From positions 1 to 64,000 of the forward strand of contig QHVT01000019.1 of assembly GCA_003223645.1 (NCBI GenBank): DNA of 64,000 bases. The letters are read 5' to 3'. The notes beneath the pieces are model-generated. The model saw only the letters and a program-made list of their open reading frames with translations. It did no database searches and was not told the DNA's origin. This document shows, piece after piece, positions 3,152-60,980 of the stretch. Within the stretch, counting starts at the first letter, position 1. Each line of letters starts with the position of its first letter. The position numbers were made by a program, and so were the translations under genes. The DNA comes from Acidobacteriota bacterium. Its GTDB lineage: Bacteria > Acidobacteriota > Thermoanaerobaculia > Gp7-AA8.

Positions 3152-3294
3152 TAATGCGGAAATAGTGCACACCGAGTAAAGCGGCGGCGCCTGCCGCTTT
3201 CAGCGTGATTTGCCACGTCATCTTGAGCCGCGAAGCGGCGAAAGTACTCAAAATACGTAACTTGGCGCCTTTACCAGCGCTTGCCGACAGCCTG

Positions 3295-3588
3295 AAAAGC
3301 TCTATCGGCAAAGCAAAAAGCTTTATCGACAAAGTAAAAAGCTCTATCGGCAAAGCAAAAAGCTATACCGACAAAGTAAAAAGCTATACCGCCGAAGCAG
3401 AAAGCTTTATCGACGAAGCAAAAAGCTTTATCGGCGAAGCAAAAACCCTTACCGACGAAGCAAAAACCTTTATCGACAAAGCAAAAACCTTTACCGACAA
3501 AGCGAAAAGCTTTGCGGTCAGAGTAAAAAGCTTTGGCGGCGAAGCAAAATACTGCACCGCCAAAGTAAAAAGCTCTGCCGGCGGAGTG
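3295..3588. repeat. Fourteen-unit 21-nt tandem array with phased A-tracts (downstream of lspA)
   Basis: Fourteen contiguous units of exactly 21 nt begin at 3295, 3316, 3337 and so on to 3568. The consensus is AAAAGCTTTATCGACAAAGC plus one base. Rotated, it shares the core GAAGCAAA with the array at 1730-1845. Each unit carries an A-tract, and 21 bp is two helical turns, so the block should be intrinsically curved. The plus frame 3205-3615 is open across it (136 residues) and reads amphipathic heptads such as E-A-K-S-F-I-D. The N-terminus of that ORF falls in a palindromic repeat (CATCTTGAGCCGCG near 3220), so its expression is doubtful. Confidence 0.85.
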
Positions 3589-3636
3589 AGCTTTTCAGGG
3601 TGCGGTTCACGTTAGCCACACACCACCCCTGGGACG

Positions 3637-15307: not shown

Positions 15308-15484
15308 GCATCGCAGGCCGAGGGTACCTCGGATTTGGTACGGCCCCCTTCATCCGGCCCTTCGGGCCACCTTCTCCCCGCAAGCGGCGCGAAGAGCCAC
15401 AAGGGAGGGTTGTGGCGCACGTCCGGTGGCCCCTCGCCCCGCTATGCGGGGAGAGGGTGGCCCGAAGGGCCGGGTGAGGGGCGG
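15308..15484. repeat. Palindromic repeat, copy 1, beside the DUF559 gene
   Basis: 15308-15403 runs from GCATCGCAGGCCGAGGGTAC through CCTTCTCCCCGCAAGCGG to GCCACAAG. It matches 15840-15933 with three substitutions and two single-base length differences. Here it is followed by an inverted arm (15424-15484, GCGGGGAGAGGGTGGCCC and onward), giving a large hairpin. The C-terminal codons of the DUF559 gene lie in this inverted arm. A third relative occurs at 45714-45832. Confidence 0.8.
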
Positions 15485-15825
15485 TTCCTGATGCGCTGCG
15501 CGATCGCATATTCGATGATCGCTTCCGCCATCTCCGCATCTTTCGCGAGCAATTCATTCTCGATGCGCACGACCTCAATTCCTCGCGACTGGAGATATGC
15601 AGTGCGCTGATCGTCGTGCAACACGACGCCGAGCATGTCGTGCTGATGCCCATCCAATTCGATCGCCAACTTTAACGACGCGCAGTAGAAGTCGAGTACA
15701 TAACGACCGACCGGCACTTGTCGTCGAAATTTGAATCCGCTGAACGAGCGGTTGCGGAGCCAGTTCCACATGCGTCGTTCGCTGAGCGTTGCGGATTGGC
15801 GCAGTTGCCTCGCGCGATCGCGCAT
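15442..15825 (-). CDS. DUF559 endonuclease-like protein in a repeat-flanked cassette
   Basis: About 127 residues from ATG 15825 (MRDRARQLRQS). An ATG at 15843 is an alternative and lies exactly at the inner end of repeat copy 2. The protein has the DUF559 block: LSERRMWNWLRNRSF, GFKFRRQVPVGRYVLDFYC, LKLAIELDGHQH and GIEVVRIENELL. DUF559 is related to Vsr/PD-(D/E)XK nucleases, and the D-F-Y and E-L-D-G-x-x-H positions are the expected metal-site residues. The last residues (RPSPGPSGHPLPA) are encoded by the palindromic repeat. No methyltransferase or other partner is adjacent. The nuclease is bracketed by direct repeats of about 95 nt, which suggests it moves or is maintained as a unit with them. 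Confidence 0.78.
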   Translation of the reverse strand: MRDRARQLRQSATLSERRMWNWLRNRSFSGFKFRRQVPVGRYVLDFYCASLKLAIELDGHQHDMLGVVLHDDQRTAYLQSRGIEVVRIENELLAKDAEMAEAIIEYAIAQRIRNRPSPGPSGHPLPA

Positions 15826-15839
15826 GTGCTTCGAGACGG

Positions 15840-15945
15840 GCATCGCAGGCCGAGGGTACCTCGGATTTGGCACGGCCCCTCATCCGGCCCTTCGGGCCAC
15901 CTTCTCCCCGCAAGCGGGGCGAAGGGCCACAAGAAGGTTCGTTGC
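15840..15945. repeat. Palindromic repeat, copy 2, on the other side of the DUF559 gene
   Basis: A direct repeat of 15308-15403 (15840-15933), without the following inverted arm. Its first bases GCAT contain, on the minus strand, an ATG that could start the DUF559 gene. It lies about 40 nt after the stop codon of the TPR-protein gene. Confidence 0.8.
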
Positions 15946-19123: not shown

Positions 19124-19137
19124 GCATTCACCTCCGA

Positions 19138-19225
19138 TGGATGGCGGATGGCAGATGGCGGATGGCAGAAGCGGCTCGGGCCTTCCTCTGCCATCTGCCA
19201 TCCGCCATCTGCCATCTGCCATCGA
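19138..19225. repeat. Hairpin built of 7-nt units (GGCAGAT/GGCGGAT family)
   Basis: Left arm: tandem GGCGGAT and GGCAGAT units. Right arm: tandem ATCTGCC and ATCCGCC units. It lies immediately upstream of the ribosome-binding site of the 19123 gene. The same family occurs at 53181-53253. Confidence 0.75.
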
Positions 19226-19249
19226 GCGATGAGGATAACGCTACAGCCT

Positions 19250-31152: not shown

Positions 31153-31254
31153 TGTCATCCCGAGCGTGAGCGAGGGACCTGGGCGGGAGGTGACGCAAGT
31201 CACGTTCCTCGTGGCGCCACCCGCCCAGGTCCCTCGCTCACGCTCGGGATGACA
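31153..31254. repeat. Perfect 35-bp stem palindrome between convergent genes
   Basis: Arms 31153-31187 and 31220-31254 are perfectly complementary (TGTCATCCCGAGCGTGAGCG...), with a loop that contains TGACGCAAGTCA. It starts 8 nt after the transglycosylase stop and contains the last codons of ndh. It probably works as a bidirectional terminator. It belongs to the CATCC(C/T)GAG family seen near 2240, 60886 and 62218. Confidence 0.88.
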
Positions 31255-32899: not shown

Positions 32900-33008
32900 A
32901 GGAGTGACGGAGAGAGGTAATTCCCTACCCGGCAAATTTTACGCGAGAGCGGAGAGGGGTTTTGGCGGGGACGCGTTCATCGCCTGTGGTGGGTGTGTTC
33001 GAGCACTA

Positions 33009-33140
33009 CACAGGAAGGCAGAAGGCAGAAGGCAGAAGGCAGAAGGCAGAAGGCAGAAGTAAGAAGCCCGCCCGGCCGGCACGCTAATCGTCGGGCGTGC
33101 TTCTCAATTCTGCCTTCTGCCTTCTGCCTTCTGCCTTCCC
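33009..33140. repeat. Hairpin built of 7-nt units (GGCAGAA family)
   Basis: Left arm: about six tandem GGCAGAA units (33012-33058). Right arm: about four tandem TTCTGCC units (33109-33137). The loop is about 50 nt. Relatives: 44058-44165 and 57558-57692. It lies between the 32868 gene and the 33198-33599 gene. Confidence 0.8.
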
Positions 33141-33197
33141 GGGCCGTGCGCGCGAATCACGCCACTTGCGACACTCGCCAACAGCCGACGCTCGTGC

Positions 33198-44043: not shown

Positions 44044-44057
44044 GGCGCGCGGGATTA

Positions 44058-44165
44058 TGAAGGCAGAAGGCAGAAGGCAGAAGGCAGAACGTAGAATGGT
44101 GGCGATGAGAATGCGCCGACCGTTTCTCACTTCTGCCTTCTGCCTTCTGCCTTCTGCCTTGATCT
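44058..44165. repeat. Hairpin built of 7-nt units (GGCAGAA family), overlapping a signal-peptide coding region
   Basis: Left arm: tandem GGCAGAA units at 44062-44088. Right arm: four tandem TTCTGCC units at 44131-44159. The right arm is read in frame by the nucleotidase-like gene and encodes its signal-peptide core (S-A-F-C-L-L-P-S-A-L). The left arm lies in the gap between the divergent genes. Confidence 0.85.
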
Positions 44166-45658
44166 TCCTGACTGCCTGCGCGACCGTTCCCCCCGCCCCC
44201 GCCCATTTCAAAATTCTCCAGCTCAACGACGTCTACAAAATCGAAGGCCTCGAAGGCGGACAAAGCGGCGGACTGGCGCGCGTGCGTACGCTGCGCAAGC
44301 ATCTCGAGTCGGACGGCTCGCCGGTGCTCGTACTGCACGCGGGCGACGCGTTGTATCCGTCGTTGATGAGCAAGTATCTCGAAGCGAAGCCGATGGTCGA
44401 CGTGATGAATCTGCTGGACGGCGACTCGACGGCGAACGATCACAACTTCATCATCGTGTTCGGCAATCACGAGTTCGACAAGAGCGATCCGACGATTCTC
44501 CTCGACCGCGTCAAGGAGTCGCAGTTTCAGTGGATCTCGACGAACTCCGTCTACTGCAATCCCAACTGCGATCAGAAGTTTCCCGGCGTTCCCGAGCTCT
44601 ACGTCGAAGACGTCGGCGGCGTGAAGGTCGGCTTCATGGGACTGCTGTATCCGCTGCAGAACAAATACGCGCGCACGACCGACGTGATCGACGCGGCGAG
44701 GGACGCCGCGAATGTGCTGCGCGAGCAGATGGGCGCGCGCGTAGTCATCGCCATCACGCACGAGGACATGCCGGACGACGTGAAGCTCGTGCAGGCGCTG
44801 CCGGGAATCAACATCGTCATCGGCGGCCACGATCATCTCTTCATGCAGCAGCGAGTCGAGAACACGTGGATCGCGAAGGCGGACGCCGACGCGAAAAGTG
44901 TGATCGTATGGGACGTGATCGTGCCGCCGCACGGCCCGGTGCAAACGACGCCGCTGCGCGTCGTGCTCGATTCAACCGTGCCGAAAGACCCGGCAGTCGA
45001 TGCCGTGGTGCAGAAGTGGATGGGCGCGCTGTCGGACAAGCTCGGCGGCAATGACACGCTCGGCTACACGAAGAACCTGCTCGAAGGCGTCGAGCCCGCG
45101 GTGCGCGGACGCGAGACCGCCCTCGGCAATCTCCTCGCCGACGTCATGAGCGCGCAGATGCAGACCGACGTCGCGGTCATCAACGGCGGCTCGATCCGCA
45201 TCAACGACAACATCCCGCCCGGTCCGATCACGAAGTACGACATGGAAGGGATTTTTTATTACACGAACAAACTCGTGGCCTGCAACGTCACGGGACAACA
45301 GCTCCTCGACATGCTGCGCAATTCCGTCTCGCGCGTCGACGCCGGCGACGGCCGCTTCCTGCAAGTCTCCGGAATCAAATTCAAATACCACCCGCAAAAC
45401 GGCGCGTTCGTCGTGAATGCGAACGACGTCGAAGTCGGCGGCAAGCCGCTTGACGTCAACGCCACCTACACCCTCGGCATCATCGACTTCATGTACACAC
45501 GCGGCACCGAAGACGGCTACATGCTTTTCTCCGACGCCAATCGTCCGCCGAAAGTGAACACCGATCGCGAGGCGGATTTACGCGCGATGGTCGAGTCGTA
45601 CATTCGCAGGGTGGGGACGGTCGACACGGACATCGAAGGCAGAATCGTGCGGCAATAG
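44105..45658 (+). CDS. 5'-nucleotidase/metallophosphatase-like lipoprotein
   Basis: 517 residues from ATG 44105 (another ATG two codons later). The signal is MRMRRPFLTSAFCLLPSALI followed by FLTAC, a lipobox with Cys25. The metallophosphatase domain has LQLNDVYKIEG, LHAGDALYPS, VFGNHEFDKSD, ITHEDMP and GGHDHLFMQ. The C-terminal 5'-nucleotidase domain contains GNLLADVM, NGGSIRIND and the ending YMLFSDANRPP. In the first metal motif the usual His of N-D-x-H is Tyr (N-D-V-Y), a variant seen in some family members that may alter metal binding. It would act in the periplasm on nucleotides or UDP-sugars. The hydrophobic core of the signal is encoded by a hairpin repeat. Confidence 0.87.
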   Translation: MRMRRPFLTSAFCLLPSALIFLTACATVPPAPAHFKILQLNDVYKIEGLEGGQSGGLARVRTLRKHLESDGSPVLVLHAGDALYPSLMSKYLEAKPMVDVMNLLDGDSTANDHNFIIVFGNHEFDKSDPTILLDRVKESQFQWISTNSVYCNPNCDQKFPGVPELYVEDVGGVKVGFMGLLYPLQNKYARTTDVIDAARDAANVLREQMGARVVIAITHEDMPDDVKLVQALPGINIVIGGHDHLFMQQRVENTWIAKADADAKSVIVWDVIVPPHGPVQTTPLRVVLDSTVPKDPAVDAVVQKWMGALSDKLGGNDTLGYTKNLLEGVEPAVRGRETALGNLLADVMSAQMQTDVAVINGGSIRINDNIPPGPITKYDMEGIFYYTNKLVACNVTGQQLLDMLRNSVSRVDAGDGRFLQVSGIKFKYHPQNGAFVVNANDVEVGGKPLDVNATYTLGIIDFMYTRGTEDGYMLFSDANRPPKVNTDREADLRAMVESYIRRVGTVDTDIEGRIVRQ

Positions 45659-45713
45659 TCGCCTCGTGCTTTTCAAGATTGAATCTATACGTTGCAATGA
45701 CAAGCCCCTCATC

Positions 45714-45832
45714 CGTCGCTTCGCGACACCTTCTCCCCGCACGCGGGGAGAAGGGCCACTTGGCAGCAGTCTCGTTTGTTGCCCCTCGCCCCGCGACGCG
45801 GGGAGAGGGTGGCCGAAGGCCGGGTGAGGGGG
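45714..45832. repeat. Palindromic repeat of the CCCTCATCCG/CTTCTCCCCGC type
   Basis: Left arm CCCCTCATCCG...ACCTTCTCCCCGC, right arm GCGGGGAGAGGGTGGCCG...GGGTGAGGGG. It has the same family and two-arm form as 15308-15484, but contains no gene. It lies between the nucleotidase-like gene and the LolC/E-type permease. Confidence 0.8.
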
Positions 45833-52642: not shown

Positions 52643-53179
52643 TCAAGTCATGAAAAAACTGATCCACACCTCGCCGTATTCGGCGCGGCGCGAGAAATTC
52701 AGGCGGTTCGTCGTGACGGTGAACGGCTCGCTGTGCCGCCGGTGCTCGATTGCGACGATCGCGTCGTCGGCGAGCGGGAGCGCATCGATCGACATCAGGA
52801 GATCATCGTAATGCGGATAGGCATAGGGCGGATCGGCGTAGACGACGTCGAAAACCTCCGTGCCGAGGCGCTTAATCCCTGCAAGGACGTCGGCGGTGAG
52901 CGTGCGGACGCGCACGTCGAGCTCCTTTGCCGCGCGATCGATCGCCGCCATGTGCGCGCGCGATTTGTCGATCGCAACTGACTCCGACGCGCCGCGCGAG
53001 ATCGCCTCGAACGAAAAGATTCCGCTTCCGGCGAAGAGATCCAGAAAGCGAGCGTCCTGAATCCGCGCGCCGGCGATGTTGAAAAACGCCTGCCGCGCGC
53101 GCTCGGACGTCGGACGGACGTCGTTTTTCGGAACGGGAATTCGGCGGCCGCGAAGCGTGCCGGCGGTGATGCGCAACAT
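52643..53179 (-). CDS. rsmD: 16S rRNA (guanine-966-N2)-methyltransferase RsmD
   Basis: 178 residues from ATG 53179; the open frame further upstream is hairpin repeat and is excluded. SAM motif FLDLFAGSGIFSFEAISRGA and the catalytic motif Y-A-D-P-P-Y (114-119) are typical of N2-guanine methyltransferases of the RsmD family. The start RITAGTLRGRRI and VRPTSERARQAFFNI complete the signature. It methylates G966 of 16S rRNA in the 30S subunit. It is 6 nt upstream of phoH and co-directional with it. Confidence 0.95.
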   Translation of the reverse strand: MLRITAGTLRGRRIPVPKNDVRPTSERARQAFFNIAGARIQDARFLDLFAGSGIFSFEAISRGASESVAIDKSRAHMAAIDRAAKELDVRVRTLTADVLAGIKRLGTEVFDVVYADPPYAYPHYDDLLMSIDALPLADDAIVAIEHRRHSEPFTVTTNRLNFSRRAEYGEVWISFFMT

Positions 53180-53180
53180 C

Positions 53181-53253
53181 AGATGGCGGATGGCGGACGG
53201 CGGATGGCAGAAACGCCGAAGGAACGCCGTCTGCCATCTGCCATCCGTCATCT
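53181..53253. repeat. Hairpin built of 7-nt units (GGCAGAT/GGCGGAT family)
   Basis: Left arm: GATGGCG, GATGGCG, GACGGCG, GATGGCA. Right arm: TGCCATC, TGCCATC, CGTCATC. It lies between the start of rsmD and the 3' end of the secreted-protein gene, and touches the stop codon at 53252. Same family as 19138-19225. Confidence 0.75.
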
Positions 53254-57488: not shown

Positions 57489-57557
57489 CGGGAGGGACGA
57501 GCGCGTGTTGGATGATGCGCGCGTTGCGCATGTGGCGAGTTCGTGCGCGCACCGGCC

Positions 57558-57692
57558 AAGAACGCAGAAGGCAGAGCGCAGAAGGCAGAAGTGAGAAGTA
57601 CCGCCGCGCGCGTGGCAAAGTTCGTCATGATCCGGGGGGTGGGGTTTCTAACTTCTGCCTTCTGCGCTCTGCCTTCTGCGTTTCAGGGACGT
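57558..57692. repeat. Hairpin built of 7-nt units (GGCAGAA/GCGCAGA family)
   Basis: Left arm: GCAGAAG, GCAGAGC, GCAGAAG, GCAGAAG. Right arm: TTCTGCC, TTCTGCG, CTCTGCC, TTCTGCG. The GC-to-AG substitutions in one arm are matched in the other. It lies between the GGDEF gene and the DUF4388 gene at 57761. Confidence 0.78.
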
Positions 57693-57760
57693 GCGCGAAC
57701 GATCACGCCACAAGCGACACGCGCGCCTCATCCGCAATTGTGCTGAAATATCCCCCGCCC

Positions 57761-60885: not shown

Positions 60886-60980
60886 CGTCATCCTGAGCCG
60901 CGCAGACGGCGAAGGATCTCTGAATGCGAAACGTTTGCGTAACCTGAGATCCTTCGGCGTCTCCGCGCCTCAGGATGACG
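60886..60980. repeat. Palindromic repeat of the CATCCTGAGCC type
   Basis: Left arm (60886-60920) CGTCATCCTGAGCCGCGCAG...GGATCTC and right arm (60946-60980) GAGATCCTTCGGCG...CAGGATGACG are nearly complementary over 35 nt. It lies between the SPOR gene and mrp. Same family as 2239-2456. Confidence 0.8.

Follow-up and report, generated by a model that had tools for sequence, protein, structure and literature searches.

In REPtrons (tnpA-REP / RAYT) and REPINs, a single nuclease gene lies between inverted palindromes, and solitary pairs of such palindromes are found genome-wide; the nuclease is an HuH Y1 transposase and the palindromes are GTAG-tagged REPs. I-Bth0305I (PDB 3r3p), a Vsr-related nuclease of a mobile intron, is intron-encoded and has a long specific target, and no triplex ends are described for it. 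In the antiparallel purine-motif code of the triple helix, the third strand places G on G and either A or T on A. E. coli has been known since the 1990s to carry triplex-forming repeats, the boxC/PIT/triplex-motif (TM) class, and in 2015 a survey reported them from more than 260 genomes; its consensus form, TM_ECO, has a 3-nt loop separating the second and third strands (PMC4666352). In the cited sections of this survey (Holder et al. 2015), no mobility activities were found around the TM_ECO sites, and earlier work is described as having seen no promoter or terminator activity for PIT elements; the words 'nuclease' and 'ycjD' are absent from its main text. Caulobacter VsrA (CCNA_02930), which shares the fold family of Vsr, carries DUF559 and triggers the SOS response, at a cost to Caulobacter, when a methyltransferase is absent; its authors regard it as a mismatch-repair enzyme, and no repeat partner is described in the passages cited (PMC12907096).

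The window, that is, the whole 64,000-nt stretch of DNA analyzed here, contains one stand-alone DUF559 gene, which is the sole DUF559 gene of the 6.38-Mb genome (Table 1). Its reading frame is open up to a GTG at 15873 (15442-15873, minus strand), and the right repeat has an in-frame ATG (MPVSKH..., 15843) at its edge. The initial annotation had placed this nuclease ORF, with its C-terminus encoded within the left repeat and with the alternative ATG, between two direct repeats of ~95 nt, and had noted that the repeat family also occurs without the gene. These points stand: the palindrome has 67 matches in the genome, mostly as pairs in opposite orientation, one of them (45705-45759) the gene-less member of Table 1, and the direct copies (15308-15403 and about 15837-15933) are 94% identical. 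The bracket that defines the unit is, however, inverted and not direct, with the tails of the palindromes at 15426-15481 and 15876-15933 facing the gene from both sides. The layout is thus a pair, the DUF559 gene and a half pair. The left direct copy repeats the upstream end of the element itself, 38 nt with a palindrome, and the 38-nt stretch occurs just twice (15308.. and 15838..) among the 67 palindrome matches. We therefore rejected the 95-nt direct repeat as the defining feature, since such direct repeats are rare and the inverted TM bracket defines the unit. In the window, the 95-nt repeat may have arisen as a tandem or incomplete copy of the element end and not as a target duplication.

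Table 1. Features of the DUF559 locus and of a related solitary repeat in the window.
Feature	Coordinates	Strand	Remarks
DUF559 (Vsr-like, PD-(D/E)XK) nuclease gene	15442..15843	-	start taken at the ATG of MPVSKH; PF04480 E 2e-32
Triplex-motif element left of the DUF559 gene	15426..15481	+	Y arm, R arm GGGGAGAGGG, linker hairpin, tail GGGTGAGGGG towards the gene
Second, degenerate element left of the gene	15346..15403	-	pairs with 15426..15481, tails outward
Triplex-motif element on the 5' side of the gene	15876..15933	-	R arm GGGGAGAAGG, tail GGATGAGGGG towards the gene
38-nt region upstream of the DUF559 gene	15838..15875	-	holds palindrome CCGAGGTACCCTCGG at 15850-15865
38-nt upstream region, copy 2	15308..15345	-	palindrome at 15318-15333; together with 15346-15403, the left repeat of the initial annotation
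Solitary repeat-family member without gene	45705..45762	.	same family as the gene-flanking palindromes

The CCGAGGTACCCTCGG motif was considered as a site of the nuclease and rejected; since it also stands upstream of other genes in the window's genome, an operator is more likely. Several DUF559 genes of the family are preceded by the palindrome CCGAGGTA(C/T)CCTCGG (in the window at 15318-15333 and 15850-15865). In genome G000 it is found at C21:390456 and 391130, C36:72574 and C46:44074; two copies, spaced by 674 bp, adjoin a gene for a PIN-like toxin and further copies adjoin other genes, and the palindrome is perhaps the operator of a stress regulator. The window holds other repeats as well: a second family, whose GAAGGCAGAAGGCAG / CATCTGCCATCCGCC units form large inverted repeats (19133-19237, 33000-33152, 44045-44189, 53175-53212 and 57510-57733), a further dispersed inverted repeat of long palindromes GTCATCCTGAGC...GAAGGATCT (31153-31254, 60886-60980 and 2418-2457), and tandem arrays with a 21-bp period (3253-3628 and 1704-1829).

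In each repeat, a pyrimidine arm and a purine arm are followed by a linker and then by a purine-rich tail; the linker is either 3 nt long or a second, freely varying hairpin. Read in reverse, the tail equals the purine arm with some A replaced by T, as seen in the pairs GGGGAGAAGG/GGATGAGGGG, AAGGAGGGG/GGGGTGGTT and GGGAGAGGGG/GGGGTGAGGG. The tails of 106 of 200 asymmetric-arm hairpins near DUF559 genes follow the triplex code with at most one mismatch. On the same hairpins, the parallel reading gave 35 matches, shuffled arms a median of 23 and a maximum of 34 (200 rounds), and tails swapped between loci a median of 30 and a maximum of 40. Since 106 of 200 exceeds the parallel, shuffled and swapped controls, arm and tail co-vary, over 60 arm-tail combinations.

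Judged by their sequence, the repeats belong to the boxC/PIT/TM class and are not ordinary REPs. Both window elements (GGGGAGAGGG/GGGTGAGGGG and GGGGAGAAGG/GGATGAGGGG) have the Y arm, the R arm and the antiparallel purine-rich third strand of the TM definition; they depart from the E. coli TM_ECO consensus form in having a 14-nt hairpin linker instead of the 3-nt loop, and 3-nt linkers are present at other DUF559 loci (L062, L065). The GTAG/CGTC class of REPs was rejected because the tails are unlike those tags as given in the cited part of PMC3733652. A blastn search with the window repeat found repeats in Sinorhizobium, Rhizobium and Azospirillum plasmids (206 records), which we tentatively set beside the RIME repeats of rhizobia as a candidate identity. 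On one side of some DUF559 genes the TM is amplified in tandem (L091:1859-2063 with 70-bp units, L090 and L276), and the 225-bp tandem units of L090 include DUF559 3' end fragments as well.

The initial annotation likened the locus to a nuclease gene accompanied by partner repeats, in the manner of REP/RAYT or homing systems. Inverted palindromes shared with dispersed copies flank the DUF559 gene on both sides. This arrangement is that of REPtrons, whereas the gene is a DUF559 gene and not an HuH Y1 transposase gene. The enzyme is a PD-(D/E)XK nuclease of Vsr fold, the ends follow the triplex code instead of carrying a GTAG tag, and a long target duplication is seen at one site. Unlike the TM_ECO sites as covered by the cited sections of PMC4666352, the repeats are here tied to a DUF559 nuclease gene.

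The association was examined in DUF559 genes collected from 60 relatives, from 396 genomes of the phylum, from the remaining places and from a one-genome-per-species scan, of which the best 80 of 573 confirmed stretches were used. Loci were picked by protein match and not by their flanks. The titles in the species scan included Proteobacteria, Nitrospirae, Nitrospinae, Chloroflexi, Verrucomicrobia, Parcubacteria and other Patescibacteria, Bacillota, Myxococcales and Thermodesulfobacteriota. The count leaves out 18 of the 70 loci from Acidobacteriota, in which the domain is fused, partial or split, and 3 of the 80 from the species scan, one of the latter being L101, a duplicate identical to L050 over the match; in one analysis of the 80 species-scan loci, one with a short flank was left out.

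Of the resulting 129 stand-alone genes from many phyla, which draw in part on the best 80 of 573 species-scan stretches, 118 have a TM at a distance of up to 230 nt (on both sides in 79, on one side in 39 and on neither by scan in 11), the nearest TM points its tail towards the gene on 153 of 197 sides, and the median distance from the domain edge is 53 nt. The density of TMs is 4.4 to 5.2 per kb adjoining the DUF559 gene versus ~0.2 per kb further out. In the same Acidobacteriota genomes, no TM was found at 60 control genes, namely 30 PIN genes (from more than 150 matches) and, as 30 of the 57 matches listed, 13 small GIY-YIG genes and 17 UvrC genes; for the other phyla, the same-locus flank served as the control. 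DUF559 domains fused into large proteins showed no TM either (0/10). The initial annotation had named, as a finding that would speak against it, DUF559 genes no more often repeat-flanked than other genes. With 118 of 129 (the best 80 of 573 included) against 0 of 60, the result went the other way, and the observation holds more generally than first thought. Plain inverted flanks (SW 30 or more) were present at 34 of 50 and 52 of 76 DUF559 loci; this score was set aside as proof, and the triplex scan and control genes were used instead. Inverted flanking repeats at the same threshold, other than triplex motifs, also occur at 4 of 12 small GIY-YIG genes (L214-L222, L225, L226, L230, L235). The literature listings searched, which covered papers open to read without subscription, showed no paper joining DUF559 with palindromic repeats, REP or triplexes, and do not settle priority.

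Two strict TM patterns, positive in 25 and 18 genomes, were counted in the same 396 genomes as DUF559; the reversed control pattern gave zero among the matches listed. Both TM and DUF559 were present in 28 genomes, DUF559 only in 8, TM only in 15 and neither in 345, with an odds ratio of 80 that is inflated by kinship. In other words, a TM pattern occurs in 28 of 36 DUF559-positive versus 15 of 360 DUF559-negative genomes. The corresponding counts were 14/6/11/179 by genus (p 5e-11) and 9/4/9/65 by family (p 4e-5). DUF559 is absent from 15 of the 43 TM-positive genomes. One of these 15, G032, 96% complete, carries 92 strict TM copies and no DUF559 match at E 0.001, which argues against a strict need of the TM for the DUF559 gene.

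The window protein matches PF04480 (DUF559) at E 2e-32. A profile of 16 relatives matched PDB 3hrl, a Neisseria endonuclease-like protein, at E 1e-31 and 3r3p at E 5e-5, and a Foldseek search with the predicted structure (model pLDDT 92.9) gave 3hrl and 3r3p (E 1e-4) as the best matches, followed by Vsr (1vsr) at E 0.02. The protein is thus assigned to the DUF559 / Vsr-like nuclease class from the PF04480 match and the predicted Vsr-type fold. Acidic and histidine residues are invariant (D51, E62, D64 and H68 of A3). DUF559 was found in 2 of 50,697 phage records at coverage of at least 80%, and defence-system models gave weak matches only, to DpdF and to a homing endonuclease model; matches to toxin chains in the PDB, at E 0.03 or more, were treated as chance. 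Since VsrA causes an SOS response when a methyltransferase is absent, a member of the DUF559 family has genotoxic activity, as far as the cited passages of PMC12907096 go. Because a nicking enzyme could be tamed for repair, the mobility and the mismatch-repair readings are both tenable.

Joint presence and absence of gene and repeats was seen at the 3' end of a gene that we take, from its protein, to be pntB. In 41 genomes of one genus, 28 loci had enough sequence for comparison, 2 of 30 having been left out at contig ends. DUF559 is held by 10 of them (in one case split by a stop), all with scanned TMs, which stand on both sides in 9; the other 18 have neither DUF559 nor a scanned TM. By eye, a decayed TM pair, perhaps a leftover, can be made out in one of the gene-less loci, L267. 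Several filled loci (e.g. L264, L265, L266, L272 and L279) carry a second copy of the last 55-60 bp of pntB beyond the unit, and most empty loci carry a single copy. A second partial copy was also seen in L275 and L277, which lack DUF559, and this speaks against a simple account at this site. In the pntB gene tree, filled and empty loci are intermixed with 6 changes, at least 5 of them forced by well-supported branches; both repeated insertion and repeated loss are possible. A tRNA as the target was rejected, none being found in 11 loci.

A cleaner case is L091, where a 679-bp piece made up of a TM, DUF559 and three tandem TMs lies behind the stop codon of a gene whose last 53 bp recur beyond the unit, the copies being 98% identical. 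When the piece and one 53-bp copy were removed by script, L091 aligned to L297 in one stretch of 2406 columns at 74%. The comparison of L091 with L297 shows that a TM-DUF559-TM piece was inserted with a 53-bp target duplication. None of the 17 gene-less loci at this site holds the unit or a scanned TM (L308 ends at the site; L310 and L313-L315, with partial or short matches, were left out).

Long direct repeats bracket 17 of 125 DUF559 loci versus 3 of 59 control loci (p 0.13; 4 of 129 left out), and since the control genes are also bracketed, this statistic is weak alone and not decisive. Several of the 17 loci (L039, L050 and L127) may be tandem repeats or TM leftovers. At L072, L077, L090, L091 and L178, the direct repeats start beyond the outermost TM, at a distance of 3 to 20 nt on one side or both. 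At the 23 solitary TM sites of the window's genome, no flanking duplication reached the score. The mobile cassette suggested by the initial annotation thus finds support for the family, in the joint presence and absence at pntB and in the clean empty site with duplication of L091. For the window's own unit it does not: in 17 genomes of the family there was no syntenic empty site, and the two neighbours were never side by side.

In E. coli K-12, ycjD is a DUF559 gene, and it was found in 3365 of 5426 complete genomes. TM_ECO no. 9 (1,351,204-1,351,239), one of the 23 TMs of K-12, lies 168 nt from its 3' end; we estimate the chance of a TM within such a distance at ~0.3% (18 sites in 4.64 Mb). 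A strict TM is present on one side of ycjD only, and in KE47 a TM lies closer behind the gene. Strains without ycjD were rejected as empty sites and give no clean comparison, because an efflux operon, eef according to the cited part of PMC12817139, occupies the place.

The best reading of these data is a REPtron-like mobile unit made of a Vsr-fold nuclease and triplex ends. The gene and its repeats, as far as their arrangement tells, are probably the minimal mobile unit of a widespread family, in which a DUF559/Vsr-fold nuclease gene, the putative mover, stands between two inverted TM ends with the third strands towards the gene. We infer that the nuclease catalyzes the movement. Against this reading weigh the 11 of 129 genes without a scanned TM and the 39 with a TM on one side, the 15 TM-positive genomes that lack DUF559, the direct-repeat statistic, the 23 solitary TM sites with no duplication, the single strict TM of ycjD, and the mismatch-repair role ascribed to VsrA, the one DUF559 protein studied. 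In the scheme that we envisage, the TM ends, when single-stranded, would extrude as hairpin/triplex structures, and the DUF559 nuclease would recognize the extruded ends and nick both the target and the ends or their vicinity. With the opposite strands nicked at positions separated by ~50 bp or more, fill-in would give the long target duplication, which would allow the unit to settle at a gene end with the target gene unbroken. Solitary TM pairs would then be non-autonomous or leftover ends.

There are other possible interpretations. The repeats might be targets and not ends, the nuclease gene cutting pre-existing TM pairs and being copied in by repair, as in homing. DUF559 is indeed a relative of the I-Bth0305I catalytic domain in sequence and fold, solitary TM pairs with tails outward are common, and the window gene adjoins a complete pair. 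At two sites, however, no pre-existing TM target was present, since all 35 gene-less loci (18 at pntB and 17 at the L091 site, where L308 ends at the site) lack a scanned TM. The duplicated sequence at the insertion sites is moreover that of the host gene and not of the TM, and we consider homing unlikely. The host target is duplicated there and not interrupted. Another enzyme, for example a Y1/RAYT transposase acting on hairpin ends, might move the unit with the nuclease as a passenger. REP-like ends are tied to Y1 transposases in other bacteria, in the cited part of PMC8266576; yet it is DUF559 alone that stands constantly between the ends in many phyla, and the 679-bp unit of L091 has no room for another long gene, which makes a passenger improbable.

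The TMs could also be terminators or attenuators beside a toxic nuclease gene, fixed in place and occasionally lost. Their close and oriented placement (a median of 53 nt from the domain edge, with the best 80 of 573 stretches included) would suit such a role, as would the cost of DUF559 protein activity in Caulobacter (cited passages of PMC12907096). We nevertheless regard this account as improbable: the other toxin and nuclease genes have no TM (0/60), tens of copies of the same repeats lie elsewhere in the genome, the duplicated target at L091 favours insertion, and PIT elements lacked promoter or terminator activity in the earlier work mentioned in the cited sections of PMC4666352.

Returning to the mobile unit with triplex ends, the joint insertion of gene and repeats points to a minimal mobile element of a new kind, from which the TM repeats may derive. 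It is conceivable, at a confidence somewhat below even, that a cross-phylum class of transposable elements with a Vsr-fold nuclease, triple-helix ends, wide nicks and duplications of ~50 bp or more that leave the target gene whole is the source of the bacterial boxC/PIT/TM repeats, with ycjD as the resident copy of K-12. A nuclease gene tied to TMs across phyla is a candidate agent for these long-puzzling triplex-forming repeats, and because of this tie the question of mobility can be tested in E. coli K-12 through ycjD. The finding also suggests what DUF559, a large family of 'unknown function', may do, and it suggests that Vsr-like nucleases are linked with homing nucleases and with genome instability.
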